A stretch of 64,000 nt of DNA. It comes from Thaumarchaeota archaeon CSP1-1 (GTDB lineage Archaea > Thermoproteota > Nitrososphaeria > Nitrososphaerales > Nitrosopumilaceae). The translations under genes were made by a program, and so were the position numbers. Location of the stretch: positions 119,387-183,386 of the forward strand of contig LDXL01000006.1 of assembly GCA_001443365.1 (NCBI GenBank), written 5' to 3'. Positions 1,462 to 19,664 of the stretch are shown here, one piece after another. Numbering within the stretch: the first letter of the stretch is position 1; every line of letters begins with the position of its first letter. The notes below the pieces were generated by a model. The model saw only the letters and a list, made by a program, of their open reading frames with translations, ran no database searches and was not told where the DNA came from.

Positions 1462-2091
1462 ATGAAAACAACTACCCAAAAACAAAAAGAACTGAGAACC
1501 AGTCACAAAGCAGTTGCTCCAATTATAGCAACTCTTCTATTGGTTGCAATCGCAGTTGTGGGAGGCACAATTATCTTTGTATTTGCACAAGGATTCTTTA
1601 GCTCTTCACAAATCAGTGGAACACCACAAATCGAATCAGTACAGATCTTAGGTTACGATTCAAGAGCAGTGACAGTCCTTCAAGCACATGATGGAAATCT
1701 AATGCTTGCTGGCTCTGCTGGAGATGTAGATGCAAACAAAGAGCAAGGCGAAAGAGTAGCCATATATCTTACCAACAACAGTGTACAAAAAATTGTACTT
1801 GGTGCGATAAGTTTCGGAGGATATACCTACCAATACATTGATGCATCAGCTACAGGCTTAGGTTCTTACCTTAGTGCAAACGTTCCTCAAGGCAACTATA
1901 CAGTCTTGATTTCAACTCCAGATACACTGTTGGGTCAAGGTGCAGGCGAATTAGCCCCAGGTCAAACTGCAACTGTAGTACTGGATCTTGATAGCGACCT
2001 AAGAATAGGACGTTCTTCACAGTTCAAACTAACAACTTCTAACGGTAATGTGTTTGTAGGAACAGTTTCCGTTGGTCAACAAAGTGGTTAA
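1462..2091 (+). CDS. Type IV pilin-like protein (class III signal peptide)
   Basis: The N-terminus has a short charged leader followed by KAVAPIIATLLLVAIAVVGG, a long hydrophobic helix (about residues 18-43). This is the archaeal pilin/archaellin-like pattern, with processing by a prepilin peptidase expected after K16 or A17. The remaining 165 residues are a beta-rich, Ser/Thr/Gly-rich globular domain with no cysteine, suited to an extracellular fibre. It would be inserted in the membrane and assembled by the ATPase and TadC-like proteins encoded at 9731-13247. An inverted repeat and TATA-like sequence lie upstream. Whether it is the major subunit is not shown, though its separate promoter would fit that. 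Confidence 0.8.
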   Translation: MKTTTQKQKELRTSHKAVAPIIATLLLVAIAVVGGTIIFVFAQGFFSSSQISGTPQIESVQILGYDSRAVTVLQAHDGNLMLAGSAGDVDANKEQGERVAIYLTNNSVQKIVLGAISFGGYTYQYIDASATGLGSYLSANVPQGNYTVLISTPDTLLGQGAGELAPGQTATVVLDLDSDLRIGRSSQFKLTTSNGNVFVGTVSVGQQSG

Positions 2092-2133
2092 CCCCACTCC
2101 CCTTTTTTCCTTTTTATGGAGGTATGCTAAAAA

Positions 2134-4443
2134 ATGAAAATCAACTCCCTAGCCATTTTGTTTTTGATTGTAATATTACTACCAGCAAATATTGTGCCAG
2201 CATTTTCACAAACTAGTTCAAATAATTTTGAAAATTTTCTAGTAGAATTATCACTTTCACCATCACATGTAGATGAACATAGTTCTACACATTCGGTTGG
2301 ATATGTGAATTTGGTAAGCAAAAATGGTTTGGCTATCAAAGCTCCTCAAGATATTGCAGTAGGATTAGAATCAGATGATCCTTCAATAGTTTCTGTACCA
2401 ACTTCAGTTATAATTCCTAAAGGCCACAACTTTGCAGTTTTTGATATACAAACTGGAGATAAAGATGGAGAAACTACTATTTCTACAATATTTAATGATA
2501 AAATAGATTTTAAAAACTTCAAGGTTGGTGGTGCTGATGATTCAATGCCAGATGGCATTAGTCTTAAAATAAATTTTCCAACTAATAACATGCATGTAAA
2601 CTCTGAGATGCCGTTCTCAGTGTACTTGCAAACATCTGATGGTGATATTATCAGAGCCCCATACGATATTGAAATTGAGCTCAATTATGAAAAATCACTT
2701 CTTCATACTAGTACAGAGAAGATGATAATAAAAAAGGGAACCTATTATGCGTGGGGAATCATAAATACATACGAGGAAGTTGGCAATGGATTTCTTAGAG
2801 CATCTTTTGATCGTTTGGGAATAGATACGTCTGAAAATATTGAAATTACTTCTTCATTACCTGTTGCACTTGCAATAAACGTATTTCCTAAACAAATATC
2901 TGCTGATGTTAACAGAAATATTGATGTTTTTGTGAGTTTGGTTGATTCAGATGGCCTTCCTGCTGTAACTCCAGTGGATGTTACATTAGAGTTATTCTCA
3001 GATGAGGATGTTGTTGGAAGAAAATTAGATGATAGGATGAAGGATACAGATGTTGTAATAAAAACAGGTGAATTTGGTTATTACTTTAGAGAACAAATGA
3101 ATCTTGCTGGTTTTGAAGGACGCGAAATAATGATAGGTGTTAGTGCTAAAGATTTAGGAATCGCAACTGAACAATTTGAAGCTGTACAATCACTAAACAT
3201 TGATAATCCCTTGGCAGAAAACCATACTCTAAGTCTTTTTGTCCTTCCACAAATCCCAAGCAAAACAACTTCAATTTTGGTTTATCAAATTATGGCAAAA
3301 GGAAGTGATGAAGGCTGTGAAGAACAAGTAAATGAGGAAGGTGAGACTGTATGTATAGAAGTAAAAAGCGATGAAGAGAAACATCCAATCGAAGCACTTG
3401 GGGATGGGGAATTATATCCAGTACAAGCCAATGAAAATTTTGCGTCTGATGGTTTAGTAGATAAAATAAACATTATCTCAGGGGATAGCTCCATAATCAA
3501 TGTAGAAGAATCTGGTAATATTGAAAGCTCGTATTCGTATGGAACAGCCGTAATATCGAGTGGTCAAAAAAATGGGGAAGTTACTCTTGCTGCAACAGTA
3601 AAGGGGATAGGGGCTGGAACAATAACGTCGGAGGTAATTGATGTATTCAAGCATACTGATACAAAGATTTTTTCCCCTACTGGTCCTGATAATATAGTGG
3701 TAGACAAAAATGGATATTTTGATTTATTTTTAATTGCTCTTGATGGAAAATCAAGACCAAAAATTTTAGAAAAAGATACCAAATACATTTTAAATCCAGT
3801 AAATGATGTTTTAGAAATTAAAAAGAATCATTCCTTTGCAAGTGCAAATTTCCTTAGTGATTCCTTTAATGTAATAGAAGGCACGCCCATTACGGTAACT
3901 GCAGTTCCTATAGGGGTTGAAGCAGAATTGAACCTAGAGGCATCAACTAGCTTTGCTAGCCAGATTTCATCCAGCATAGAAATTGAGCTTCCATTTAAGA
4001 ATCTGGATGCCAATAGCCAGGTTCCATATAATGGCATAGTACAGCTTAGAGATCTATTAGGAAATCCTAGTAGTGCTACAAAGGATGTTAGAATTAATCT
4101 TAATTTGGATGGAGCAAAAATTGTAAATATTCCTGAATATGTAACAATTTCTCAAGGAAATTCATATGCAACATTTCCAATTTCTTCTAACGGGGAAAAC
4201 GGAGATGCCACTATTGGTGCTAACATAAAAGGGGTACTAGGCTCTCAAACAAAAATCAGCACTGTCTCAAATGAACCTAAATTAAAGATCTTTGCAGATG
4301 GCATAACTGCTCCTCTTAATATTGGCGAACCTACAAAATTAAAAATTTTTATTGATGATGAAAATGCCGAGTCAGTGGCTGGGGCAATAATAAAATTTGT
4401 CACAACACCTGGCGTTACAGTATCACCTACAAATACGAACTGA
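2134..4443 (+). CDS. Large secreted Ig-like surface protein, C-terminal frame broken
   Basis: This frame encodes 769 residues. It has a signal peptide (about 1-25, ending AFSQ) and then many beta-sandwich-like repeats with recurring patterns such as GEVTLAATVKG, GDATIGANIKG and ASANF, typical of bacterial/archaeal Ig-like adhesin or S-layer-associated proteins. One acidic insert near residues 390-415 holds two cysteines. It follows the pilin-like gene by 42 bases, so it is probably co-transcribed. The frame stops at 4441-4443 inside a recognisable Ig-like strand. The missing membrane anchor continues in another frame (4397-4726). Removing the single G at 4437 restores one 863-residue-class protein reading TNTTDETG across the join. 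Confidence 0.75.
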   Translation: MKINSLAILFLIVILLPANIVPAFSQTSSNNFENFLVELSLSPSHVDEHSSTHSVGYVNLVSKNGLAIKAPQDIAVGLESDDPSIVSVPTSVIIPKGHNFAVFDIQTGDKDGETTISTIFNDKIDFKNFKVGGADDSMPDGISLKINFPTNNMHVNSEMPFSVYLQTSDGDIIRAPYDIEIELNYEKSLLHTSTEKMIIKKGTYYAWGIINTYEEVGNGFLRASFDRLGIDTSENIEITSSLPVALAINVFPKQISADVNRNIDVFVSLVDSDGLPAVTPVDVTLELFSDEDVVGRKLDDRMKDTDVVIKTGEFGYYFREQMNLAGFEGREIMIGVSAKDLGIATEQFEAVQSLNIDNPLAENHTLSLFVLPQIPSKTTSILVYQIMAKGSDEGCEEQVNEEGETVCIEVKSDEEKHPIEALGDGELYPVQANENFASDGLVDKINIISGDSSIINVEESGNIESSYSYGTAVISSGQKNGEVTLAATVKGIGAGTITSEVIDVFKHTDTKIFSPTGPDNIVVDKNGYFDLFLIALDGKSRPKILEKDTKYILNPVNDVLEIKKNHSFASANFLSDSFNVIEGTPITVTAVPIGVEAELNLEASTSFASQISSSIEIELPFKNLDANSQVPYNGIVQLRDLLGNPSSATKDVRINLNLDGAKIVNIPEYVTISQGNSYATFPISSNGENGDATIGANIKGVLGSQTKISTVSNEPKLKIFADGITAPLNIGEPTKLKIFIDDENAESVAGAIIKFVTTPGVTVSPTNTN

Positions 4444-4726
4444 TGAAACTGGCATGGCTAATGTTGACATAACAGCAAATGAAGGAGAATTAGTTTCAAT
4501 AGAAATACTTGCAAGCGCATCAGGGTATTCTGATGGCAAGGAAAGCTTTGACTATACAGTAGCTGGTTCTTCTGGTAATTCTTTGGCACTTGGTCTTCCT
4601 GAATGGGTAGTTTATGTTGGAGTTGCAGCTGTAATTGGCATTGGGGTAGTTTTACTAGTCTTCCTTCGAAAACCTAAACCAGAAATCGATGAAGAGGAAG
4701 ACTATGAATATGAAGACGAAATTTAA
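4397..4726 (+). pseudogene. Out-of-frame C-terminus of the Ig-like protein (membrane anchor)
   Basis: This frame is a fragment, not an independent gene: its first 14 residues or so are out-of-frame sequence of the upstream gene. From about 4439 it reads TDETGMANVDITANEGE, the natural continuation of the last Ig-like domain. It then has a transmembrane helix (WVVYVGVAAVIGIGVVLLVFL) and an acidic cytoplasmic tail (EIDEEEDYEYEDEI). Together with 2134-4443 it would make a C-terminally anchored surface protein. The break may be a real mutation, a sequencing error or, less likely, recoding. Confidence 0.7.
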
Positions 4727-4785
4727 CCAAAGTCATAAGAATATTTATTTCAAAGAAAAAGGACTTTGTGGATTTAAGTTTTTGA

Positions 4786-5094
4786 TTAACTAGTGCCATT
4801 AACACTTGTTGTGTTCTTTAATTCAGAATGCAAGGTACTATTTTCTACGATAACTTTGTTTTTCAAGTCTTCCACAGTATCTCCTACAAACTTCCTAAAT
4901 TCCTGGGCAACATAACTATTTTTTAATTTTCCTGAGGTGTTTTGACTTAATTCACCAAATTGTTCAAAAGTAATTGTTGCATTTTCCTCGGCAGCTTTTT
5001 TTTCAACTCCTGATGCAATAAAAAATGAAACTATAACACCAAATGAAATCAGAATGAGTCCAGCGCCAAGTCCTGAGATATATTTTTCATTCAT
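4786..5094 (-). CDS. Small anchored surface protein with many N-glycosylation sequons
   Basis: The 102-residue product has one N-terminal transmembrane helix (about residues 7-29) and a hydrophilic, probably outward-facing domain. Five Asn-X-Ser/Thr sequons occur in this short domain (NAT, NTS, NST, NTT, NGT), suggesting a heavily N-glycosylated protein. It is the last gene of the minus-strand pilin operon, 23 bases after the 602-residue pilin-like gene. The N-terminus lacks the usual K-[GA]-[IV]-[SA] prepilin pattern, so it is more likely a plain membrane protein. Function unknown; a pilus accessory protein is inferred from position. Confidence 0.6.
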   Translation of the reverse strand: MNEKYISGLGAGLILISFGVIVSFFIASGVEKKAAEENATITFEQFGELSQNTSGKLKNSYVAQEFRKFVGDTVEDLKNKVIVENSTLHSELKNTTSVNGTS

Positions 5095-5117
5095 TCAAAT
5101 CCTTTATTCTAGCAAAT

Positions 5118-6926
5118 TTATGGGCATGCACCAGAAGGAAGAACCTGCAAAACAATTTCACCAATAGGACCGAGTGGTCTATTATTATTTGTGATACCAT
5201 TTGCCAGCACATGCATCACATACATTTTTTCACAACTTACTGTTGGTGCAATTGCATTAAATTGTATTGTTTTTGCACCTGAGAGAAGATCTGCACTAAG
5301 CACTCCGACTATTTGTGATGAGCTATCAGGAAATGTGTTCACAGTTGGCGGATTATTAAAACCATTATAACAAAGAGGGCAGAGGGGTTGAATTACCTGC
5401 CAATCCTTTGGAATGTTAATTATTAATTGAGTGCCTGCTTTAATCGATTCTGAGGCAGTATTGAGCTCCGCAATATTGATGTTAAATGTTTGAGTGCTAC
5501 CAGAGGGTATACCTAATCTACTTCCTTTCATATCCCCAAGAGCTGTTGATTCTGGAACGGTTGAGAGATATACATTAACAAGCGGTGATGTATCATCATC
5601 CATGGAAGTAGTCCACTTTGATTCTCCAAATGCACCCAATGTAGTGAAAATTGCAGTATGTAACACTACAGAGTCTAAACCTTCGGTAGGTCCTACAATT
5701 ACGCCTGGTTTTATCGTTACAAGGAATGTATATGCAGATCTAGGAGGAATGGCTTGTACATCATAAGGAGCAGTGGTATCATACCATACCAATTGGTTTT
5801 GATTTGGACAATCCCAATGGTCTGTTGCTGGTGCAATATTGGTGTGAACACAGCCGCTATCCAGGATTTTTTGATTATCATTTGCTCCTGCAAAAAGTAT
5901 TGACACTGTAATTTTACTTACATACATTGTTGCATCAGTAGGATTTGCAACTGTTATTCCCCACAGTGCTTGCTGATCGGCATCTCCGAAATTGTTAGGA
6001 ATTATCATAAATATGTCAGGTCTTGCGAAAAGCTCATCTCTGATAACAATCTCTTCACCGCTTCCACCTTGTGGATCCCTGACAATTATCTTATCAGAAG
6101 CCATATTACTTGTAACCGCAAATCCAGTAACTGATTCAGTACCTGTAGCAAAGTTTGAAAATTTCACCTTAATACCAACAGTAGCTGTAGCTTTTAGAGT
6201 AGTATGCCATGAAAAAATGGTAGACTCTGAAGGATTCAGATCTATAGGACTAATAGAAACTGCTTCTACATTACTTACCAAAATGTGTGGTGGAAGAGCG
6301 TCATCCAAAAGTAGATTGTCAGGGGCAACTCCCGAAATCATTGTAGGACCAACATTTGTAACACGTAGTGCAATTGTCGCATTTTCACCCTGACGAACAT
6401 CTGGAGGTATTGCAAACATCTCTGCTAAGAGATAGTTATTCCCTCCTACCTTTAGCTCAGATTTTTCTATGGTTCCAAGTGTTGAAACTACTTTAATGTC
6501 ATAATCATTAGGAAGCATATACAGAGGTTGGTGTTCAAGTATTGAGGAACCATAACCAGCAGGAATAAAAGCATCACTATAATCTACTTCAATTTTTTTA
6601 GTTGGCTGATTTGCTTCACTCTTATTTATAATCCAAATATTTGAAATTTCAACTGGATTAGGTCCCTGATTTTTAACATGAATTCCTAGTTGGTTATTAT
6701 TAGTTTCATCAGTTGCAACAGCTATGGCAAATTGTTCTTGTGTTTTATCAATTAATGAATCTGATATAGTACGCTGTGCATCTATAGTATCTGATTGTAC
6801 ATCCATTGCAACAAAAAATGCTGAAAAACCAGCTGTAAGTAACACCAAAAAGATAATGCCTCCAACTATTGTGGATATTCCTCTTTTTTTGTTAAGTTTA
6901 CTATTGTTTGAAGAGAAATTTACCAT
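5118..6926 (-). CDS. Very large pilin-like surface protein
   Basis: The N-terminus reads KKRGISTIVGGIIFLVLLTAG, a class III signal peptide with likely cleavage after G16 and a hydrophobic helix at about 17-40. Unlike normal pilins (100-250 residues), it has a further 560 residues of beta-rich sequence. Segments such as NATIALRVTNVGPTMIS, LGIHVKNQGPNPVEIS and IPPRSAYTFLVTIKPGV resemble CARDB/alpha-mannosidase-like Ig folds. A CxxC near residue 520 (PLCPLCYN) and nearby cysteines may form disulfides. Its start overlaps the preceding pilin-like gene by seven bases, which points to translational coupling. It may be a tip adhesin or an S-layer-anchored partner of the pilus; this is inference. Confidence 0.75.
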   Translation of the reverse strand: MVNFSSNNSKLNKKRGISTIVGGIIFLVLLTAGFSAFFVAMDVQSDTIDAQRTISDSLIDKTQEQFAIAVATDETNNNQLGIHVKNQGPNPVEISNIWIINKSEANQPTKKIEVDYSDAFIPAGYGSSILEHQPLYMLPNDYDIKVVSTLGTIEKSELKVGGNNYLLAEMFAIPPDVRQGENATIALRVTNVGPTMISGVAPDNLLLDDALPPHILVSNVEAVSISPIDLNPSESTIFSWHTTLKATATVGIKVKFSNFATGTESVTGFAVTSNMASDKIIVRDPQGGSGEEIVIRDELFARPDIFMIIPNNFGDADQQALWGITVANPTDATMYVSKITVSILFAGANDNQKILDSGCVHTNIAPATDHWDCPNQNQLVWYDTTAPYDVQAIPPRSAYTFLVTIKPGVIVGPTEGLDSVVLHTAIFTTLGAFGESKWTTSMDDDTSPLVNVYLSTVPESTALGDMKGSRLGIPSGSTQTFNINIAELNTASESIKAGTQLIINIPKDWQVIQPLCPLCYNGFNNPPTVNTFPDSSSQIVGVLSADLLSGAKTIQFNAIAPTVSCEKMYVMHVLANGITNNNRPLGPIGEIVLQVLPSGACP

Positions 6927-7630
6927 TTTGCATCCCCACTTATAACGTTAAATTCGGCAGGCTGAGGACCGCCAAAATTAACAACTATTCGCATCGAATC
7001 CCACATTGCTATATCTTGTGGAATATCATGGCTCAGCTTAATTATTACTCGAACCTCTTCATCCCCAAGTACCTCGTTAGTTGGTTTTTGTATCTCAGGA
7101 TTTTGTTTTTCAGCAGTTGGAATTATGCTAAAGGTTCCTGCCAAAGGGTAAGTAGTACCAGGAATACCAGTTACTGAAGCATCAAAAAGAACATTTCCAG
7201 TATTCTCTCGCCAATTATGTTTAATGTTATTTATCGAAATACCTTGCAGAAAGATCGAATTAACATTCATGTTACGTAATTTGAGAACGATAAACTCTGT
7301 ACCACTAGCAGAAGGAATGTTATTAAAAGTGAGTAAAGTAACTGTACACTGTACGCTATCGCCTTGAGTACATAACATTTCATTAAAGTCATTTAACAAG
7401 GTAGGTATGCCGATTAAGGTATCAGAATTAGAATCACGAGTATCGTATCCAGTTAACTGGATTGAATCTGCACGAGCATCAGGGCCAGAAGGATTTTGAC
7501 TGACATCAAAAAATCCATCTCTAACGAAATTAGCAACTAAAACTGCCCCTGCAACTGTAATTGCTAGTATTAATAAAGTCCCAATTGTTTCAGCTACGGC
7601 TTTTCTTTTCCTAACTCTGTGAATATTCAT
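6920..7630 (-). CDS. Type IV pilin-like protein
   Basis: The protein (236 residues) starts MNIHRVRKRKAVAETIGTLL. The basic leader ends at K10/A11 and is followed by a hydrophobic helix to about residue 33, including the helix-breaking charged residue E14 that resembles the conserved Glu5 of bacterial type IV pilins. The rest is a beta-rich domain with two cysteines (LCTQGDSVQC), probably disulfide-bonded outside the cell. It overlaps the upstream gene by four bases and the downstream gene by seven, so all three pilin-like genes are translated together. Best reading: minor pilin of the type IV pilus-like machine. Confidence 0.75.
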   Translation of the reverse strand: MNIHRVRKRKAVAETIGTLLILAITVAGAVLVANFVRDGFFDVSQNPSGPDARADSIQLTGYDTRDSNSDTLIGIPTLLNDFNEMLCTQGDSVQCTVTLLTFNNIPSASGTEFIVLKLRNMNVNSIFLQGISINNIKHNWRENTGNVLFDASVTGIPGTTYPLAGTFSIIPTAEKQNPEIQKPTNEVLGDEEVRVIIKLSHDIPQDIAMWDSMRIVVNFGGPQPAEFNVISGDAKW

Positions 7631-8160
7631 GTATTATAGGGCCTCGCTACGGTATCAAAGAAGTTACCACGTGAAGTTATGATAGAAATTTTATATTCAT
7701 GAGCAGTTGGTGTGCTACCAACATTCCAACAGCATGCAGCTAGATCAGCGTCAATAGTTAATTCAGTACTATTTTTGATAGACAAAGTTTTTGGATTGAA
7801 TGTACTCAAAGAGTCAATTTTGTATAGAATATCTTGATTAGTCATATTGACCAAAGTAATACGATCTATGACCGTTTCAACTGAACCAATATTCAGTATA
7901 GAAATCTCTACCGCATTAGATGTGGGAACAAATCTGATATGTTCAAAAATAATATTTTCTTGAATACCATTATTGCGATATTCGACTCTGTTTGACATGC
8001 TATTGTTAAAGGAACTAATTTCAATAACACCATTCAAAAGTATGACAGAACCTATAGGAACAACAATAGCCAACATAAGCAAAGCCCCCATAATTTGACT
8101 AATTCCTCTTCGTTCCTTGAATGATGGAGTTTTGGTTTTTACAAATTTAAAAAATTGCAA
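7627..8160 (-). CDS. Type IV pilin-like protein (minor pilin)
   Basis: The 177-residue product has a basic leader ending ERRG (residue 19), then ISQIMGALLMLAIVVPIGS, a long hydrophobic helix. This is the same [KR]-[KR]-[GA] / [IV]-[SA]-x-[IT] pattern seen in the three other pilin-like proteins of the locus. The globular part is short and beta-rich, with a CC pair (AACCWNVG). It follows the TackOD1 gene by five bases and overlaps the next pilin-like gene by four. A minor pilin that primes assembly is a reasonable but untested role. Confidence 0.75.
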   Translation of the reverse strand: MQFFKFVKTKTPSFKERRGISQIMGALLMLAIVVPIGSVILLNGVIEISSFNNSMSNRVEYRNNGIQENIIFEHIRFVPTSNAVEISILNIGSVETVIDRITLVNMTNQDILYKIDSLSTFNPKTLSIKNSTELTIDADLAACCWNVGSTPTAHEYKISIITSRGNFFDTVARPYNT

Positions 8161-8165
8161 TTTGT

Positions 8166-9584
8166 TTAGGCCTCCAGTTTTGGAACTTTGTTAGATAGAA
8201 TATCTTTAATGGAAGAGAGAATTTTGTTAGGTTCTTTTTCTGTAATTATTGAGATATTGTAGTTGGATGTAATTGTTTTTGCTTTCTCAGAAATTGATGG
8301 GAATCCTATCAGTATGGTTACAGTAGGGGATGTGTCCAATACTTCAATAATTTTAGAATTTAATTCCGAATTATCGCTTTCGGCATTTGGATTTTTAATA
8401 AAAATGAATGTAGTTCTTTTATGTTCATCTTCACCGTATATGTTAATGCGATAATGATTGCCACTTTTTCCAATAACTGTATGATTTTCTTCAGCAGAAA
8501 ATCCAAATGACCCCAAAAGTTTCTTAAGTTGATTTAAGATTGGGGAAATGCTAGCATTAGACGTATCTGCATAATTCTTAATTTTAAATCCTGGTATTAG
8601 AATGGAGTGAGCATTAGAAATTTCAAAATCATGGTTAAATTTTCTACAATGAAGTTTTACTGAAACATCATCAAATTTTTCATTGCATCCATTGCAGTTA
8701 TACCACATAGCAGGCCTTGCAATTTCTTTATTTGCATCATGGATTTGTTTTTTACAGGATGGACAATGTGTAATTGTTCCATCTTCAGAAATTTCAAAAT
8801 TCTTGTTCTCTGAAATGTAACCACATCTTTTATGTTCAATTAAGTGTAATTTTGAAATATCAATTGAGCTACAATGTGGACAATTTATTCGAACACTAGT
8901 AGACATTGATCCTGGATGGTCAGGACAAACAACAAGTCTTTCATAAACAGATCTTTCAAGGATATCAAAGTTTGGAGATGCGAGTTTTTCTAAAAAATCA
9001 AAATTATCATCATCTTCCCCAATTTGCGTTAAAATTGGATACGAGATTGTTCCTTGATCCATACTAATTGAAGGGACAATCATTTTTTCCCTAGAGGATT
9101 CAATGACACTTATTAATTTAGAAATTTTTTCACTTTCAGGACTAACTGATTTAACAGATTTTTTGAACTCCTGTTTGTCTAGCATTTTATCTTGAATTAG
9201 TTCTGTTTTAACTTTTGAACCAAGTTTTTCTTCAAGTTTTGATATTAATTTCTCTTCTATTTTGGCTTCTAGTGTTTTTTCTATTTTTGCTTCTAGAGTT
9301 TCTTCAGGTTTGGCTTCAAGTGTTTCTTCTATTTTGCGCTCTAGTGTTTTTTCTGGTTTTGCTTCTAATTCTTCTTCAACTGCGTTCAAATCAGCGAAAG
9401 TGACTGTTTTATCTTCTTCTCCTGATATGCTTCCTTTGAGAATAGAGGCAATCATTCCATCTTTTAGATATTCCTCTTTTGCTTTTTCAGACTCTGTATC
9501 TTTATCATGATTTTCTTTTAATTGATTAGAATCATTGCCTTTATTTTCGATTTTAAATCTATTTTTTAAATCAAATTTCAACAA
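8166..9584 (-). CDS. TackOD1-type zinc protein with octad repeats
   Basis: The 472-residue product heads the minus-strand pilin operon and starts at TTG. Residues 1-70 are charged. Residues 71-126 are seven eight-residue repeats of the type [KE]-x-L-x-x-K-x-E, likely a long helix. Residues 220-320 hold a multi-zinc module: C220, H223, C235, C238, H251, C254, C274, C277, C297, C300, C313 and H318. The pattern CPHCS...LIEHKRCG...CPSCKK...CNGC matches the thaumarchaeal output domain TackOD1. Residues 345-472 have an alpha/beta pattern (YRINIYGEDEHKRTTFIFIK, TVTILIGFP) that vaguely resembles a restriction-endonuclease fold; this is low confidence. It has no signal peptide or membrane segment, so it is cytoplasmic. 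A regulatory or assembly role in the pilus system is inferred from position. Confidence 0.7.
   Translation of the reverse strand: MLKFDLKNRFKIENKGNDSNQLKENHDKDTESEKAKEEYLKDGMIASILKGSISGEEDKTVTFADLNAVEEELEAKPEKTLERKIEETLEAKPEETLEAKIEKTLEAKIEEKLISKLEEKLGSKVKTELIQDKMLDKQEFKKSVKSVSPESEKISKLISVIESSREKMIVPSISMDQGTISYPILTQIGEDDDNFDFLEKLASPNFDILERSVYERLVVCPDHPGSMSTSVRINCPHCSSIDISKLHLIEHKRCGYISENKNFEISEDGTITHCPSCKKQIHDANKEIARPAMWYNCNGCNEKFDDVSVKLHCRKFNHDFEISNAHSILIPGFKIKNYADTSNASISPILNQLKKLLGSFGFSAEENHTVIGKSGNHYRINIYGEDEHKRTTFIFIKNPNAESDNSELNSKIIEVLDTSPTVTILIGFPSISEKAKTITSNYNISIITEKEPNKILSSIKDILSNKVPKLEA
9207..9374 (-). repeat. Seven tandem 24-base coding repeats
   Basis: Within the TackOD1 gene, seven consecutive 24-base units encode octads such as ETLEAKPE, ETLEAKIE, KTLEAKIE and EKLISKLE. 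The units are imperfect, most alike in the middle. An eight-residue period does not fit a standard heptad coiled coil and may form a charged single helix or a variant coil. The repeat number could vary between strains by slippage. Confidence 0.7.
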
Positions 9585-9675
9585 ATCGTCTTCTCCCTCG
9601 AAATATTTCCAGTACTTAACATACTACGCACCATACAATGAAAAATAGGCGTAATTCAAAGTAAAAGCCGTATGC

Positions 9676-9693
9676 TGTGCATTTGGACGCACA
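9676..9693. promoter_or_regulatory. TGTGC-N8-GCACA inverted repeat in the divergent pilus promoter region
   Basis: This element sits in the 146-base region between the TackOD1/pilin operon and the secretion ATPase operon. The left part shares TGCTGTGCAT exactly with the palindrome at 1401-1410. It ends 37 bases before the ATG at 9731, with an AT-rich TATA-like sequence (agtaaaataatta) just downstream. A shared operator for the pilus locus is inferred. Confidence 0.4.
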
Positions 9694-9730
9694 ATGAGTA
9701 AAATAATTACAAATTAGTTCAATAATACAA

Positions 9731-11386
9731 ATGAAATTTACAATTTTAAAAAATGTACTAAATAACAAGCTGCACAATTTAAATTTTAATCCGGTAAATG
9801 CAATAAAATCTGATTTTCATAAAATTTCAAATCGCAAAGTAAATAAATTAACTATTCAGGACATACCTGATTATAATGTTTTAGAAAAAAAAGAAAAACT
9901 TATTCCCAAATTTATTTCAGTTTCAAAATTAAATTTTGAAAATGCCGAAATCCATGGTGGAGTAACTAAGGATCCAAATGCAAAAGGGGGTTTACAGTAT
10001 ACTATAATTGAACCCACGTTAAGTGAGACAGATAAGAAAAATTTTGAAATTATTAAAAAATTACTCATTACTGAACTCAGTGTCTCTTTGAGTGAAATAA
10101 AAACAAAGCATAGTGCAGAAATGAAACTAACAAAAAAAATATCTCATCTTATAAAAAAATACAATTTAGAAATTCCTTCTAAAAACTTATCAAAAATTAC
10201 CTATTATGCGATTCGTGATTTTATCTATCTAGGAAAAATTGAACCATTGATGAGAGATCACATGGTAGAAGAAATAAGCTGTGATGGAACTAACATACCA
10301 TTATATATTTGGCATAGAGAGTTTGAATCGATTCCCACAAACATTCTCTTTGAAACAGATAAAGAATTGAATAATTTTGCAAGAAAAGTTTCTTATATGT
10401 CTGGCAAGCACGTTTCAATGGCAAACCCAATTGTAGATGCGGCTCTTCCAGATGGAAGTAGAATCAATTTGACTCTTGGTCATGAGATTACAAAAAGAGG
10501 TAGTACTTTTACCATTAGAAGATTTAGAGCAGATCCAATTACTATTGTAGATCTTATTAAATTCCAAACAATGTCAGCTGATATTGCTGCATACTTGTGG
10601 TATGTTGCAGAAAAAAATTCTACTATGCTTGTAGCTGGAGGAACTGCAAGTGGGAAAACAACTGCACTTAATGCATTGGCATCATTTATCCGTCCCGGGC
10701 AAAAAATCGTTACAATCGAGGACACACAAGAGTTGAATTTACCTCATGAAAATTGGATCCCAGCAGTTTCAAGACAAAACTTTACTGATGGACAAATTGG
10801 AGAAATAAATCAATATGATCTGCTTCGTGCTGCATTAAGACAGCGACCCGATATTATTATAGTAGGCGAGACAAGAGGTCGGGAAGCCTATACATTATTT
10901 CAAGCCATGGCAACGGGACACGGAGGCTTTTCTTCTATCCATGCAGATTCTGTTGAAGCGACCTTAACAAGACTAGCATCATCCCCAATGGATATACCTA
11001 AAACATTAATTGCTAATACTTTGGATTTGATTTACCTTCAGCTAAAGCTAAGAGTGAAAGACAAATCAGTGCGAAGGATAATTCAGATTTCAGAAATTGC
11101 TGGTCTTGATGAAAAGACTGGAGAAATTCGTACTCATGAAATATTCAAATGGGATCCTCATACGGATACTCATACATATGGAGGAGACAGCATAGTACTT
11201 AATAAAATAAAAGAAAGACATGGTGAAAGCGATGAACAAATCAACTACGAATTAAGTAAAAGAAAACTTGCTATAGAATGGATGGTAAAAAATAACATCC
11301 GTGAACACAAAGAAGTTTCGAATAACATTCGAGAATTCTATGCAGATCCTGAACGATTTTCTGAGAGAAAAAGAATGTTGGTGTAA
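9731..11386 (+). CDS. Type II/IV secretion (pilus assembly) ATPase
   Basis: The hexameric ATPase powers pilin assembly or secretion from the cytoplasmic face. Visible motifs: Walker A GGTASGKTT (about residues 302-310), an Asp box region after it (ITIEDTQEL-like VTIEDTQELNLP), Walker B DIIIVGETRGREA (about 374-386) and the His box GHGGFSSIHAD. The N-terminal 230 residues contain the N1-like domain with LRDHMVEEISCDG-type sequence. At 551 residues it is of normal length for the archaeal GspE/FlaI/TadA family. It is followed by two TadC-like membrane genes, which makes this the motor of the pilus locus. The absence of archaellum accessory genes (flaJ-neighbours FlaG/F/H) argues for a pilus rather than an archaellum. 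Confidence 0.9.
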   Translation: MKFTILKNVLNNKLHNLNFNPVNAIKSDFHKISNRKVNKLTIQDIPDYNVLEKKEKLIPKFISVSKLNFENAEIHGGVTKDPNAKGGLQYTIIEPTLSETDKKNFEIIKKLLITELSVSLSEIKTKHSAEMKLTKKISHLIKKYNLEIPSKNLSKITYYAIRDFIYLGKIEPLMRDHMVEEISCDGTNIPLYIWHREFESIPTNILFETDKELNNFARKVSYMSGKHVSMANPIVDAALPDGSRINLTLGHEITKRGSTFTIRRFRADPITIVDLIKFQTMSADIAAYLWYVAEKNSTMLVAGGTASGKTTALNALASFIRPGQKIVTIEDTQELNLPHENWIPAVSRQNFTDGQIGEINQYDLLRAALRQRPDIIIVGETRGREAYTLFQAMATGHGGFSSIHADSVEATLTRLASSPMDIPKTLIANTLDLIYLQLKLRVKDKSVRRIIQISEIAGLDEKTGEIRTHEIFKWDPHTDTHTYGGDSIVLNKIKERHGESDEQINYELSKRKLAIEWMVKNNIREHKEVSNNIREFYADPERFSERKRMLV

Positions 11387-11390
11387 AAAC

Positions 11391-12329
11391 TTGCAAAAGT
11401 CTTCTGATTTTTACGCAAAAGCCAATAAAAAAAGATTTGAAGTCAAAGAGTCAACTGGAACAATACATGTTCTAAGCTTTAGACTGCTCAATAAACACAT
11501 TCAATTTTTGTATCCAAAGCTAAGCAATTTGGAAAAAACCATCAAACATGGAATGATGCCAATCCCATTTGAGGTATATGTTTGTAGTATGGTGTTTTTC
11601 AGTATTATTGCAGGAATTATTGGATTAATATCTGGAGTTGTGATTGCACTGTCAATCGATATTCAACCAGTGGCATTTTCTTTTCTTTTGCCAATAATAG
11701 CATGTGCTGGCATGGCACAGGTAACTTTTTTTATTTTACAAATGTTGCCCCAAATCAGTGTAAAGAATCGTGCATCAAGACTGGTTGATGAATTACCACA
11801 TTTTATTGGGTATATGGCAACACTTGCTACAAGTGGGTTATCCTTAGAAGGAATTTTTAAGGCAATATCAAGTGAGGATGCTGATGAAGAAATAGTCAAA
11901 GATTCTAAATTCATTACTAGAAATATTGATGTTTTGGGTATGGATTTGGTTACTGCTATTAACGATTTGATCAAAAGAAGTCCTCCAGGTCCTTATACAG
12001 ATCTTTTAGAAGGTGCTATAATTACTGTTCAATCAGGGGGAGATCTGAAAGAATACTTTATCGCTACTGGTAAAGTTCAATTAGAAGAAAAGAAAATGTC
12101 ATTGAAAAGATCAACTGACTCATTGGGCATTATGGCCGAGATGTATACTATTCTGTTAATTGTGTTTCCATTAATGGCTGTCATTATGTTATCCATAATG
12201 TCAATAATGAGTCCGAATTTGGGTGGTTTTGATCTAATGACTTTGCTGAATTTAATGACTTATGTTATGGTCCCATTTTTTGGGTTTCTCTTGTTGTTTA
12301 TGATGGATTCAATGGTGCCAAAGAGGTAA
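11391..12329 (+). CDS. Type II secretion F / TadC-like membrane protein
   Basis: This is the inner-membrane platform protein on which the ATPase acts. It has a T2SF domain with ELPHFIGYMATLATSGLSLEGIFKAIS, then SPPGPYTDLLEGAIITVQSGGDL, and paired transmembrane helices before (about 85-130) and after the domain. The frame is open upstream to 11301, which would overlap the ATPase gene by 86 bases. I chose the TTG at 11391, four bases after the ATPase stop, giving 312 residues, because the next gene also starts TTGCAAAA after a similar gap and the extra N-terminus only reads the ATPase gene in another frame. Confidence 0.85.
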   Translation: MQKSSDFYAKANKKRFEVKESTGTIHVLSFRLLNKHIQFLYPKLSNLEKTIKHGMMPIPFEVYVCSMVFFSIIAGIIGLISGVVIALSIDIQPVAFSFLLPIIACAGMAQVTFFILQMLPQISVKNRASRLVDELPHFIGYMATLATSGLSLEGIFKAISSEDADEEIVKDSKFITRNIDVLGMDLVTAINDLIKRSPPGPYTDLLEGAIITVQSGGDLKEYFIATGKVQLEEKKMSLKRSTDSLGIMAEMYTILLIVFPLMAVIMLSIMSIMSPNLGGFDLMTLLNLMTYVMVPFFGFLLLFMMDSMVPKR

Positions 12330-12335
12330 TTATTC

Positions 12336-13247
12336 TTGCAAAAAGCAAACCAAAGACCCAGAAAAAGCAGAGACGAGGTAAAATTACCAAAACTATCTTT
12401 GTTTCATTCACAAAAATTCAAAGTTGTGCTTCCTTCTGCCCTTGTAGGCATTGTTATGATTGTGTCAAGTCTTTACTATTCTGGGCTGTCTGGAAATACG
12501 TCCATAAGAGATGTTGGAGTAATCTTTGGTGCCCTTACAGCAATTGTTCCAGTTACTCTAATTCATCTCAGAGAAACTCAAAGAAAAGATAACATTGATC
12601 GAAATCTTCCATTATTCTTACTTGCCTTATCAAGTGCAGTCCAAAGCGGAGCAAATCTGATTCGAGCAATTGAAAATGCTGCAGATCGTAACATGGGCCC
12701 TCTTACCCCAGAATTGAAAAATTTGAGAGCGAACATAAGCTGGGGAATGCCTATAGAAGATGCATTTGAAAATTTTGCTAATAAAACTGGCACAAAAATG
12801 TCAAAACGTGTTGCAGTATTACTAGAAATGGCATTGAAAATTGGAGGGGATATTAGAACAAATTTGGAGATGATACAAAAACATGTTACAGAATTACAAA
12901 ATTTAGAAAAAGAACGAAAATCTTCACTAGCTCCTTATACATATACCATCTACATTTCTTTTGCAGTTTTTCTAGGAATCGCTGTTATACTCTCATCACA
13001 GTTCTTCAGCGAATTTGCAGTTGTTCAAAAATTACTTGAGAAAAGTCCAGGGGAAGGAGAATTTTTTTCGTCAATCACAAATATGGATATTGAAGCATTG
13101 AACACAGTTTTGTTTAATATGTCAATAATTGAAGCAATATTTGGGGGATTAGCAGCAGGAAAAATTGGTTCAGGAAATTATGTTGCAGGAATAAAACACA
13201 TAATCGTTATGATTGTAATGGCAGTTGTAGCATTTATGTTCATCTAG
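12336..13247 (+). CDS. Second type II secretion F / TadC-like membrane protein
   Basis: The 303-residue product has two transmembrane helices near residues 33-75, a cytoplasmic T2SF domain (LPLFLLALSSAVQSGANLIRA, GTKMSKRVAVLLEMALKIGGD) and two or more helices at the C-terminus. It starts at TTG 12336, six bases after the previous stop. Archaeal pilus systems often have the platform protein as a duplicated or paired form; here two adjacent genes encode the pair. It ends the + operon, with a convergent TrmB-type regulator 50 bases away. Confidence 0.85.
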   Translation: MQKANQRPRKSRDEVKLPKLSLFHSQKFKVVLPSALVGIVMIVSSLYYSGLSGNTSIRDVGVIFGALTAIVPVTLIHLRETQRKDNIDRNLPLFLLALSSAVQSGANLIRAIENAADRNMGPLTPELKNLRANISWGMPIEDAFENFANKTGTKMSKRVAVLLEMALKIGGDIRTNLEMIQKHVTELQNLEKERKSSLAPYTYTIYISFAVFLGIAVILSSQFFSEFAVVQKLLEKSPGEGEFFSSITNMDIEALNTVLFNMSIIEAIFGGLAAGKIGSGNYVAGIKHIIVMIVMAVVAFMFI

Positions 13248-13297: not shown

Positions 13298-14209
13298 TTA
13301 ATTATTTTTTATATCTAATTTTGTTAGTGGTTTAGAGGTTCGCCACAAAAATTTACATAAACTAAAAATGTTATTCACCATTTCAGCTGAGTTAGTCCAT
13401 AATGCAAAATCTGAATCTGCTCCTAAACTAAATGAATCAGTAGTTGACCTTGAATTTTCTGTGTTTACAAAATCAGATGCATTCATAACATCAGACATTA
13501 CCATCTGTTTTCCTTCCTCGACTATGATCCTGCCTTTTGAAGGAAGCTTCCCAAGTCGAGTCTCAGTTGGTTTTAATCTATCAATTAATGGTAAGAATTT
13601 TTTATCATCTGCATCAGTTAAAATTCTAACTGTTCCTCCTTTTCCAATGCATTCTTTTATTTTTTCAGGAATTGCAGTATGATACATTCTCAGAATATCT
13701 TCTGTTGTTGTGACAATGTAGATTGTTCCTGAAGAATCTTCTAAGAGTTTTTCAATATGAGAATAAATATTTGCTCTTCCTTGTACGGTTCTGAATGTTG
13801 GAACATAATGTCCATCAGTTATTGGGACAATTTTGTTAATCTTTTTAATTACTTCCTTTCCAATTTTTTCTACTCTATTAATTTCATCTTGTTTTTTTTG
13901 CAAAACTATTTTGAGTACTTCTTCAGGTTTAGTTGCGATACAAAGCTTTGGGTTTGAAATGGTTGTTGAAACAATACTCATGTTAAGTAATTTATCAATA
14001 GTTCTGTATGTTTTTGTTCTATCTACATCAAGTTCTTTAGCCAAAGAACTTGCAGTTACTGGCCCTAATCTAAGTAGATTAAGGTAAATTCGTGCCTCTA
14101 CAGTTTCCAGATCTAAAATAGTCGATAATTGCAAAATGAGTTCTGACCAATCATCATTATAACTGCCAGTCGATAGATTATCATCTACTACAGATCCATT
14201 CTCCAACAT
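13298..14209 (-). CDS. TrmB-family transcriptional regulator
   Basis: The N-terminal winged helix-turn-helix (about residues 33-95: EARIYLNLLRLGPVTASSLAKELDVDRTKTYRTIDKLL) is typical of TrmB regulators. A helical linker (KIVLQKKQDEINRVEKIGKEVIKKI) follows. The C-terminal half has a phospholipase-D-like effector fold pattern (TIYIVTTTEDILRMY, GGTVRILTDAD). The protein of 303 residues is cytoplasmic and probably dimeric. It lies convergent with the pilus assembly operon and could regulate it, but TrmB proteins regulate many pathways and no operator for it is identified. Confidence 0.8.
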   Translation of the reverse strand: MLENGSVVDDNLSTGSYNDDWSELILQLSTILDLETVEARIYLNLLRLGPVTASSLAKELDVDRTKTYRTIDKLLNMSIVSTTISNPKLCIATKPEEVLKIVLQKKQDEINRVEKIGKEVIKKINKIVPITDGHYVPTFRTVQGRANIYSHIEKLLEDSSGTIYIVTTTEDILRMYHTAIPEKIKECIGKGGTVRILTDADDKKFLPLIDRLKPTETRLGKLPSKGRIIVEEGKQMVMSDVMNASDFVNTENSRSTTDSFSLGADSDFALWTNSAEMVNNIFSLCKFLWRTSKPLTKLDIKNN

Positions 14210-16872: not shown

Positions 16873-18069
16873 TTAAAACCCAGCAGTTATTGGATCTTTT
16901 GGTTTCATCACCTCACGCATGACAATAGTTGCATAAGATCCTCGTGAAAGTGTGAATCTTATCCAATCATTAGTAATATCAATGTCATCACATTTTATGG
17001 AGGAGTTTCTAAATCCACCTTCACTGCTTATCTCTTGCATTTCTTTTAGAAAAAAATCCTTTGGACTTACTTCTTCAGATTCTAATATTTTAGAAATTTG
17101 ATAATGAAATCTTGTCTTTTTGTAGTAAGAATAACCTACAAATGGAATTGATAATCTTTGGCCAGATTCATTGGAGAATTTTCCAATAATTCCATTTTTA
17201 TCATAACAAACATCACCTTGTTGAGGTAAGAACAAATCTTCGCCATCAATAAATGCCATGCTCAATGTTTTATTAAATAAAAATGATTGATAAGCTTGAA
17301 GATAAAAACGTCTGATTGCCAGTGGCAAGGCACGTATTGCTTTTTTGGGATCGTCATCTTGAATCATTTGATTTACAACAATCCGTTCTAAATCCATTTG
17401 AAATGGGATTTCGTCTAGTAATTTTGAATAGTTTGATTTATCAGAAAGATTTTTTCTTAGTTTAGTATTCTCTGGAGAATCATACTCTGAAGTAAATGAA
17501 AGCAATAAGTTAACTGCTTTTGTATAGTCCTGCTGCAATAGTGCTTTTCCAATTAAATGAGTTACAGGTCTTTTAGAACCAAATCTTTGATATCCGTAAA
17601 AATTTAAAATCTTATCAAACTCGTTAAATTTTGAAATATCTTTAGTAGTATCAGTTATTTTTATTTTAAATTGATTTCCAATCATATCCTTTTTAGATAA
17701 TGGCTTTTTAACAAATCCAATTCTTTCAAGGGAATACTTGTCTTCTGAAATCTTAGCAATAGAATTTAATTTTTTTTCAGAGCAGACATACTGCTCAGTA
17801 ACTGCGGTTGCATCTTTAAGACCTAGTGATTTTAAGCGCAGACTATATTTTTTGAAGACATTTGCAAGAGAGTGAGTAGTGTCAATACCATGTTTTTTTA
17901 ATTTGTAAACTGCATAATCCCCATCTGCGGAAATATTTTGAATTGCATTTTTTGACAAAACTTCTGAGACTAGAAAATCATCATCTTTTGATTTAATTTT
18001 ACCTCCACATCCCTCAAAGCTAGTAGTATATACTGAGATTCCTATTTCAGAGTCAATTTTTGGGATCAC
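16873..18069 (-). CDS. truD: tRNA pseudouridine synthase TruD
   Basis: TruD converts uridine 13 of tRNA to pseudouridine. The characteristic N-terminal sequence is present: KKHGIDTTHSLANVFKKY followed by GLKDATAVTEQYVC, with the catalytic Asp at residue 86 (E. coli family equivalent D80). The middle part has the TruD insertion (FNEFDKILNFYGYQRFGSKRP) and LPLAIRRFYLQAYQSFLFN. The C-terminus has LSRGSYATIVMREV. At 398 residues it fits archaeal TruD. It starts with GTG overlapping the stop of the preceding beta-propeller gene (GTGA), an odd partner for an RNA enzyme. Confidence 0.92.
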   Translation of the reverse strand: MIPKIDSEIGISVYTTSFEGCGGKIKSKDDDFLVSEVLSKNAIQNISADGDYAVYKLKKHGIDTTHSLANVFKKYSLRLKSLGLKDATAVTEQYVCSEKKLNSIAKISEDKYSLERIGFVKKPLSKKDMIGNQFKIKITDTTKDISKFNEFDKILNFYGYQRFGSKRPVTHLIGKALLQQDYTKAVNLLLSFTSEYDSPENTKLRKNLSDKSNYSKLLDEIPFQMDLERIVVNQMIQDDDPKKAIRALPLAIRRFYLQAYQSFLFNKTLSMAFIDGEDLFLPQQGDVCYDKNGIIGKFSNESGQRLSIPFVGYSYYKKTRFHYQISKILESEEVSPKDFFLKEMQEISSEGGFRNSSIKCDDIDITNDWIRFTLSRGSYATIVMREVMKPKDPITAGF

Positions 18070-19664
18070 TGTTCTATTATCACAGTGACAAATTTAGAAA
18101 CAACCAAATCATCAGTTTGTGCACCTATGAGAACCTTGTGTACATCTGGTAATGCATTATCACTTGATGATATTGATACTTGCACAATTCTAGGAGTATC
18201 AGAATCAGGCTTGAATGTGTCTGGGGCGTTATGTTCAACAATTAAATCAGAAAATCCTGCAGTATCTGAAGAGATAATAGAAAGATTGGGAATGTTATGA
18301 CCCTTCGGTATTATTGATAGTGTTAATTGTATTTTCTCACCTTTTTTCAATGTAACTTTTTGGCTGTCTAGTTCCACATCAAAAAAGAGAGGTAATGATG
18401 TATCTATTACTCCAATGTTATTTTCAACCCACTCTGTAAACCATATTTTATCTCCTGAAATTGTGAAATCAAATATTTGAGCTAATCCACAATTTTCCAT
18501 TTCTTCACAGTCTGCCCAGTTTGGATTATTTGATGGTATCACGTATTCAACTAGGGATTCGCTTTCAGGATCAAATACTCCAATGCGGTTTGCAGTTTGT
18601 TCATTAAAAACTAGTTTACCATTTTCATTAAATGTAGTCCAATAGGGTCGTGAAACTGGATTTTTTATCACTCCAGAAGAATTCCCGTAAGAAGAAACCT
18701 GTGGTGTTGACGTAATATATTTAGTAAATGACTCGGTGTTAGGATCAAAACTAAAGAAAAAACTGCTTGATGTATCAGCTATCCATATCTTGCCATTAGT
18801 TCCAGCAGCTATGCCGTTAGGAGTAGTCATTCCTTTGGGAAATTGGTAGACATTAATTAAATCAAAAAGTGGCGTAGTAGAGTTTTCAAATTGTGCGGTA
18901 GACGATTTTTCAAATTTATCTTGGTTAAATTTGGCTAAAACGCCTCCCTTTTGGAAAACCCAATTTGTATACCAGATATTTCTTTGCGAATCAACTGCAA
19001 AGGCGCCTGTTACAGAATTTTCAACTGGTGAGGGTATACTCAAATATGAAATTCCCTCACTAGATTGAGTTGGATCCAAGAAGGTTAGCTTATTTCCAGT
19101 AAAGTCGTTTACTATGATTTTTGAACCTTCAACAGACAAACGCTGGGGTAATGAATCGGCAATTTTTGGATAATCTGTCCTTCCATATTGTTTGTCTATA
19201 ATTGAAAACTTCCATATTCCATCAGTTGCTTCATCAGTAAACCAAAGGCTCCCGTCAGGAGAATAATCAATACCCCACATCATTGAACGTGTTCCTTTTT
19301 GCCATTTTGGATTTTCATATTCAGTAAAGACTTCATTTATGGGATCAAACTTTGCAACACGCCCTGTATTAGTTTGCGTAAACCAAATATTGCCATCCGG
19401 ATCTGTAACAATTGCCAAAGGTTGAGTACATTGTGTTGGAATTTTGTATTCTTTTACAAAGGCGCTAGATTTAGCTGATTCCTCAGAGCTACAAAATTGT
19501 GCTCTTTGAACATCAGGATAGTTATCCATCGGAGTGCCTGTAATCGTAATTTGATCATCCGCATTGTTAACAGGAGTACGAGGAAGGGAAGATGCGGCAA
19601 CAGAAGTTAACATAATAATTCCAAAAAATGCAGCTACTATGAGTCCTTTTGTTTTTTTCTTCAC
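18066..19664 (-). CDS. Secreted Vgb/NHL-type beta-propeller protein
   Basis: The protein begins with a signal sequence (MKKKTKGLIVAAFFGIIMLTSVAAS). Repeated blades carry DGNIWFTQTNTGRVAKFDP, DGSLWFTDEATDGIWKF, IWIADTSSSFFFSFDP and IWFTEWVENNIGVID, typical of virginiamycin-B-lyase-like/NHL propellers. A C-terminal beta domain of about 100 residues (LTLSIIPKGHNIPNLSIIS) follows and may attach it to the surface. Despite the family name, lyase activity is unlikely; an extracellular binding or enzymatic scaffold is more probable. It is translationally coupled to truD downstream. Confidence 0.75.
   Translation of the reverse strand: MKKKTKGLIVAAFFGIIMLTSVAASSLPRTPVNNADDQITITGTPMDNYPDVQRAQFCSSEESAKSSAFVKEYKIPTQCTQPLAIVTDPDGNIWFTQTNTGRVAKFDPINEVFTEYENPKWQKGTRSMMWGIDYSPDGSLWFTDEATDGIWKFSIIDKQYGRTDYPKIADSLPQRLSVEGSKIIVNDFTGNKLTFLDPTQSSEGISYLSIPSPVENSVTGAFAVDSQRNIWYTNWVFQKGGVLAKFNQDKFEKSSTAQFENSTTPLFDLINVYQFPKGMTTPNGIAAGTNGKIWIADTSSSFFFSFDPNTESFTKYITSTPQVSSYGNSSGVIKNPVSRPYWTTFNENGKLVFNEQTANRIGVFDPESESLVEYVIPSNNPNWADCEEMENCGLAQIFDFTISGDKIWFTEWVENNIGVIDTSLPLFFDVELDSQKVTLKKGEKIQLTLSIIPKGHNIPNLSIISSDTAGFSDLIVEHNAPDTFKPDSDTPRIVQVSISSSDNALPDVHKVLIGAQTDDLVVSKFVTVIIEQ

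Follow-up and report, generated by a model that had tools for sequence, protein, structure and literature searches.

Ammonia-oxidizing archaea rank high among microbes in abundance, yet little is known about their ways of attaching to particles, surfaces, and partners. In described thaumarchaeal pilus loci, TadC is coded by one or two genes and is accompanied by S-layer- or adhesin-like extras and by arCOG06883 (PMC4858521), which has been equated with TackOD1, a domain whose function was obscure when it was defined (PMC5847659). Four types of type IV pili, two of them adhesion-like, have been reported in ammonia-oxidizing archaea (PMC7554672). The pilus locus of Candidatus Nitrosocaldus cavascurensis, reported as unique, has an adhesin set between several prepilins (PMC5797428). 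Here we analyze a pilus-like locus of Thaumarchaeota archaeon CSP1-1, found in a stretch of 64,000 nucleotides (the window; contig LDXL01000006.1, positions 119,387 to 183,386). The genome (1.36 Mb, 98% complete) belongs to a family of ammonia-oxidizing archaea in which its named relatives are Nitrosopumilus, Nitrosarchaeum, and Nitrosotenuis. With a probability of about 0.55, the product of the locus is an adhesive type IV pilus distinct from the archaellum, in which protein A forms the shaft and proteins F, E, and D form the tip, the modular D being the binding head. The genes A and B on the plus strand are followed by D-E-F-G on the minus strand, by ATPase-TadC1-TadC2 on the plus strand, and by a convergent regulator on the minus strand (a slash marks the predicted cleavage site):

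1462..2091, plus strand: A, probable major pilin of 209 residues; signal SHKA/VAPIIA; TIGR02537 at 1.6e-8, above cut-off; site present in 13/13 orthologs.
2134..4443, plus strand: B, secreted surface protein with immunoglobulin (Ig)-like, invasin/Big-like domains; Invasin_D3 at 8.1e-7, under cut-off; signal peptide recognized by eye.
4397..4726, plus strand, different frame: C-terminal piece of B, whose translation has one membrane helix and an acidic tail.
5118..6926, minus strand: D, giant modular pilin of 602 residues; signal KKRG/ISTIVG; ArlF-like N-terminus at 1.1e-6, under cut-off; profile match to 8fk7; AlphaFold2 (AF2) model.
6920..7630, minus strand: E, minor pilin of 236 residues, homolog of A by hhalign; signal KRKA/VAETIG; site present in 18/18 orthologs.
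7627..8160, minus strand: F, minor pilin of 177 residues; signal ERRG/ISQIMG; site present in 18/18 orthologs.
8166..9584, minus strand: G, cytoplasmic TackOD1 protein of 472 residues; PF18551 at 5.6e-24; AF2 model, Foldseek, and motif columns in 69 homologs.
9731..11386, plus strand: secretion ATPase of 551 residues, the pilus assembly motor; T2SSE (PF00437) at 2.8e-43, above cut-off; placed by a tree.
11301..12329, plus strand: TadC1, first half of the membrane platform; T2SSF at 1.1e-12, above cut-off; real start probably near 11406, judging from orthologs of about 307 residues.
12336..13247, plus strand: TadC2, second half of the membrane platform; T2SSF at 2.5e-17, above cut-off.
13298..14209, minus strand: TrmB-family protein, convergent to TadC2 and probably the local regulator; orthologs adjoin pilus genes in 17/20 loci.

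All genes lie where a first-pass annotation of the DNA had placed them, and the secretion ATPase and two TadC-like proteins that it saw next to the pilins are clear family members. In its ATPase, its pair of TadC genes, its set of pilins, its cytoplasmic protein with a double zinc ribbon, and its S-layer- or adhesin-like extras, the locus resembles the thaumarchaeal arCOG06883 loci (PMC4858521, PMC5847659), and it shares with them the presence of a TackOD1 protein beside the pilus genes. Unlike thaumarchaeal clade 4A, it lacks the linked vWA and MoxR/GvpN pair, which is present in a paralogous locus of relatives (L062). It resembles the N. cavascurensis locus in the arrangement of the prepilins, but the latter also has an ATPase-binding protein and a peptidase of its own. 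The locus falls within a group of archaeal pili that has been described before, and it probably corresponds to one of the two adhesion-like types of PMC7554672. What it adds to knowledge is the module-swapping family of D and the fold of G. The locus had been called unusual for ammonia-oxidizing archaea; this is not supported, because about a third of the sampled family genomes carry it and multi-pilin thaumarchaeal pili are already published (PMC4858521, PMC5847659, PMC7554672).

The genome codes for parts expected of an archaeal type IV pilus, namely a VirB11/T2SSE-family ATPase, a TadC/ArlJ-type platform, proteins with class III prepilin signals, and an A24 peptidase. A, D, E, and F each have a cleavage motif followed by about 18 uncharged hydrophobic residues. 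The predicted mature proteins start with V in A and E and with I in D and F, after leaders of 17, 11, 16, and 19 residues, respectively. Scanning the 73 open reading frames (ORFs) of the window for motif plus helix retrieves these four proteins and one evident false positive, against 0.145 such proteins per window expected from shuffled N-termini; the stricter motif of the first-pass annotation has three matches, with 0.015 expected. TIGR02537 (archaellin/pilin N-terminus) has a strong match in A and weak ones in E and F, and Pilin_N matches the same three proteins under its cut-off. In alignments of orthologs (19 for D, 18 each for E and F, 13 for A), position −2 is K, R, or H and position −1 is G or A (once S) in all rows but one, where the chosen ORF start falls beyond the site, and no charged residue occurs from +4 to +21. 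The four class III signals first noticed by motif are thus far above chance and kept in nearly all orthologs.

The prepilin peptidase is coded on another contig of the same genome (C8), with matches to Peptidase_A24 and Arc_PepC_II, both above cut-offs. Such a peptidase is present in 49 of the 54 genomes carrying the ATPase ortholog. Among 151 family genomes, it is found in 84/96 with a pilus-type ATPase vs. 8/55 without (Fisher p = 1.6e-19, a test that overstates independence because the genomes share ancestry). Cleavage of the four proteins by a prepilin peptidase is therefore predicted from conserved sites and from an enzyme in the genome.

The ATPase ortholog (roughly 60–93% identity) is found in 54 of the 151 sampled family genomes, including Nitrosopumilus sp. 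b1 and Nitrosarchaeum sp. ECS25A1. In 20 inspected loci, ATPase-TadC1-TadC2 is always intact (20/20), and the F-E-D run is present in 19, the exception (L060) stopping at a contig edge inside G. G is missing only from L058 (19/20), and the remaining genes are more variable (the TrmB-family gene in 17, B in about 14, A in 12). The locus is therefore conserved, in gene order as well as in content. It extends to Nitrosocaldus schleperae (L099, ATPase identity 51%), which has A, B, the ATPase, both TadC halves, G, F, E, and a D of 248 residues; this gene set matches that of the window and is not of the N. cavascurensis type. A reduced set occurs in Bathyarchaeota, where ATPase-TadC1-TadC2 is followed by a small pilin, often by a long prepilin-like protein, and by a TackOD1 protein. 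The ORF at 4786–5094 (102 residues) was dropped as a pilus component, as it has no counterpart at the other loci (one member only), and sub-threshold Pfam matches to Na_Ca_ex, Malectin_like, and Zeta_toxin were set aside as noise.

The first-pass annotation held that the mature domains of the four pilins are unrelated. This fails for A and E, because their heads, compared with the helix removed, are homologous (hhalign probability 98.8%, E = 1e-15). The heads of F and D, similarly trimmed, have no detectable relation to those of A and E or to each other. Most orthologs of B hold both of its parts in one frame, and intact ones have 866–942 residues. In the window, the frame is broken near 4430–4440 (the change of frame lies within 4397–4443), and B is likewise split in L059; the broken B is either a sequencing or assembly error or a decayed gene.

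The giant pilin D consists of a leader, a helix of 50 residues, a pilin head (about 66–160), and a chain of beta domains. Its residues 7–145 match a solved archaeal filament subunit (8fk7, profile search, E = 1.2e-4), and its AF2 model shows the same long helix, a head folded as a beta sandwich, and additional beta domains. Foldseek with the whole chain retrieves generic multi-Ig proteins (e.g., integrin legs) with template modeling (TM) scores below 0.2, which indicates a chain of beta sandwiches at most. A profile of D applied to 299 genomes of the phylum finds its core (about 5–250) in proteins of about 145 to 1239 residues. The D orthologs match Ig-like families (DUF7507 in 10/19, also NPCBM_assoc and DUF11), and CARDB itself, to which D had been likened, has no match. 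In two relatives of D the Ig-like chain is replaced, by an NHL/Vgb propeller in L057 (15050–17233) and by Laminin_G_3 in L062 (16347–19430, 1028 residues), the latter within the vWA-type pilus locus. On sequence evidence, D is a modular pilin, with a class III signal and a pilin core onto which exchangeable outer modules are grafted, and this supports the adhesin-like role proposed for the oversized protein. Elsewhere in the window (18066–19664) there is a secreted protein of 532 residues that by eye resembles Vgb-type propellers, the type of module that replaces the outer domains of D in L057.

The closest functional parallel is bacterial. In Streptococcus sanguinis, the modular pilins PilB and PilC have been modeled as adhesins at the pilus tip (PMC9934059). 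As in the PilA, PilB, and PilC set, the locus has few minor pilins, some with large adhesive modules on a pilin core, including Ig-like and lectin ones. The S. sanguinis proteins differ in being bacterial, with no sequence homology shown, and in that the archaeal D carries an Ig-like chain and is placed at the tip by analogy.

Several observations weigh against D as a binding head at the tip. Its placement there follows the bacterial analogy; its AF2 model is of middling confidence (predicted local distance difference test 74, predicted TM score 0.51); and in Bathyarchaeota the giant proteins have no recognized domain, and of 46 such ATPases, part of them on short contigs, only 24 have a prepilin-like ORF of at least 300 residues nearby. 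The outer domains are about as conserved as the core among close orthologs; therefore, module exchange is visible only between more distant relatives. Finally, the ArlF-like signal of the N-terminus would fit a base or S-layer anchor. These last points are the core of an alternative in which the pilus is the same and D is a base anchor at the membrane, like ArlF/ArlG, with its beta domains gripping the S-layer and bracing the filament. The similar degree of conservation across the D domains of Nitrosopumilaceae and the resemblance of B to an S-layer-type partner fit this arrangement, as does the ArlF-like match, though far under the family cut-off. However, a stator need not exchange its outer modules for propellers or lectin-like domains, and D retains the prepilin cleavage site. 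We regard a base anchor as unlikely, yet it is the strongest of the alternatives to an adhesive pilus with D at its tip.

The system is not an archaellum, despite its homologous ATPase, TadC/ArlJ-type platform, class III signals, and the ArlF-like N-terminus of D. Domain and NCBI model searches of the locus found none of ArlC/D/E, ArlF, ArlG, and ArlH apart from that sub-threshold match, in agreement with the first-pass annotation, which had noted the lack of archaellum accessory genes. On the FlaI model NF058587, which has a cut-off of 550 bits, the locus ATPase reaches 425.6 bits, vs. 605.3 bits for the archaellum ATPase of the same genome. The latter lies on another contig (C2), where its neighbors are a FlaH-like gene of the KaiC family, a gene that occupies the position of FlaJ, CheA, and a methyl-accepting protein. 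In the ATPase tree, the locus ATPase, its orthologs, and that of Nitrosocaldus form one group (100/100), separate from FlaI (100/100), from the vWA-associated pilus ATPases, and from the Bas/Ups-like ATPases; the backbone of this tree is unresolved with regard to the published clades 2, 4A, and 4I, some branches are long, and the tree has no clade-4 reference sequences. The family has an archaellum type, a vWA type, a Bas/Ups-like type, the locus type, and one further group of ATPases. The closest solved structure to the locus ATPase is 2oap. Archaellin-like sequences were also seen as an incomplete gene cut by a contig end (L005:1–279) and as a shortened ORF (L007:1381–1596), in the same genome.

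A pseudopilus or bindosome-like system, which would display binding proteins or push a secreted protein out of the cell and form no long filament, is still less probable than a base-anchored D. The ATPase matches the BasE model with 228 bits, the large secreted protein B is coded alongside, and the locus has no retraction ATPase, all of which would suit such a system. But the BasE score is far under its cut-off, as are those of UpsA, UpsB, UpsF, and BasF on the locus proteins, and 12/20 inspected loci keep nearby a distinct pilin, A, whose signature is UpsA-like. The pilus reading and the adhesin-like role of D are supported by the conserved cleavage sites and synteny, the co-occurrence of the peptidase with pilus ATPases, and the architecture of D.

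The AF2 model of G has a low-confidence N-terminus, a confident zinc-ribbon domain (152–326), and a C-terminal alpha-beta domain (about 347–471). Foldseek matches G to the nucleases NucS/EndoMS (5gke at 9.5e-6, 2vld at 1.4e-5) and to AF1548 (1y88 at 6.2e-5), with the Can2/Card1 nucleases near the top; these matches are multi-domain, and the root mean square deviation is high for 5gke and 2vld. A sequence profile of the same stretch independently, but weakly, picks 1y88 (E = 0.23). The complete catalytic triad of PD-(D/E)XK enzymes, D...(D/E)xK, is found in none of 69 homologs of G, among which a GKSGxxH motif is nearly invariant. The model suggests that this domain has a PD-(D/E)XK nuclease-like fold that is apparently dead. 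Given the lack of a full catalytic set, a binding or regulatory role is likelier than cleavage, and the domain is probably a binding fold and not an enzyme. A partial literature search found no earlier description of such a fold in TackOD1, a domain of obscure function that is now tied to a pilus motor and to a recognizable fold. TackOD1 was rejected as a specific marker of this pilus, since many Nitrosopumilaceae genomes have further TackOD1 proteins of about 300–350 residues, remote from pilus loci.

Because of this fold, a DNA-exchange pilus (competence-like or Ups-like) was considered, in which the zinc ribbons and the nuclease-like domain of G would serve to handle DNA. The resemblance of G to NucS/EndoMS and AF1548 and the weak match of A to UpsA (1.4e-5) point that way, but the ComEC channel is found in 0/151 family genomes, no complete triad was seen in the 69 homologs of G, and the UpsA score is far below cut-off, which makes DNA exchange very improbable. 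We give hardly any weight to the last alternative, in which A, D, E, and F would be ordinary surface proteins held in the membrane by hydrophobic N-termini that serve as plain signal anchors. Although cleavage of the four proteins is predicted from sequence, the K/R/H-G/A site is conserved in four families, the genome has a peptidase that co-occurs with pilus ATPases, and synteny with ATPase and TadC is fixed.

An adhesive pilus could be assembled as follows. The membrane-bound prepilin peptidase coded elsewhere would cut the short leader off each of A, D, E, and F, and the ATPase would drive the two-part TadC platform, with pilins added at the base. F-E-D, coded as one block, would start the filament and so end up at its tip, and A would build the shaft. 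The helix and head of D would be its pilin anchor, displaying the outer beta domains as a binding head. B may be a membrane-tethered surface or S-layer-associated partner. On the cytoplasmic side, G may act as a regulator or adaptor, and transcription is probably under the control of the TrmB protein. A more detailed version, which we put forward tentatively and doubt more than we believe, is that F-E-D is an archaeal minor-pilin tip complex (comparable with bacterial HIJK/PilABC), with D showing lineage-specific Ig-chain, propeller, or lectin-like modules, and that a zinc-ribbon protein with a dead nuclease fold, tied to the ATPase in both Nitrososphaeria and Bathyarchaeota, gates assembly from within the cell. 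The locus is in any event a concrete and widely shared candidate for attachment, and it points to a likely binding subunit and its exchangeable modules.

TrmB-type regulators are found by the pilus locus (13298–14209), by the prepilin peptidase (L073:9607–10413), and by what by eye is an archaellin (L005:553–1362). This distribution suggests one TrmB-type regulator per surface-appendage locus.

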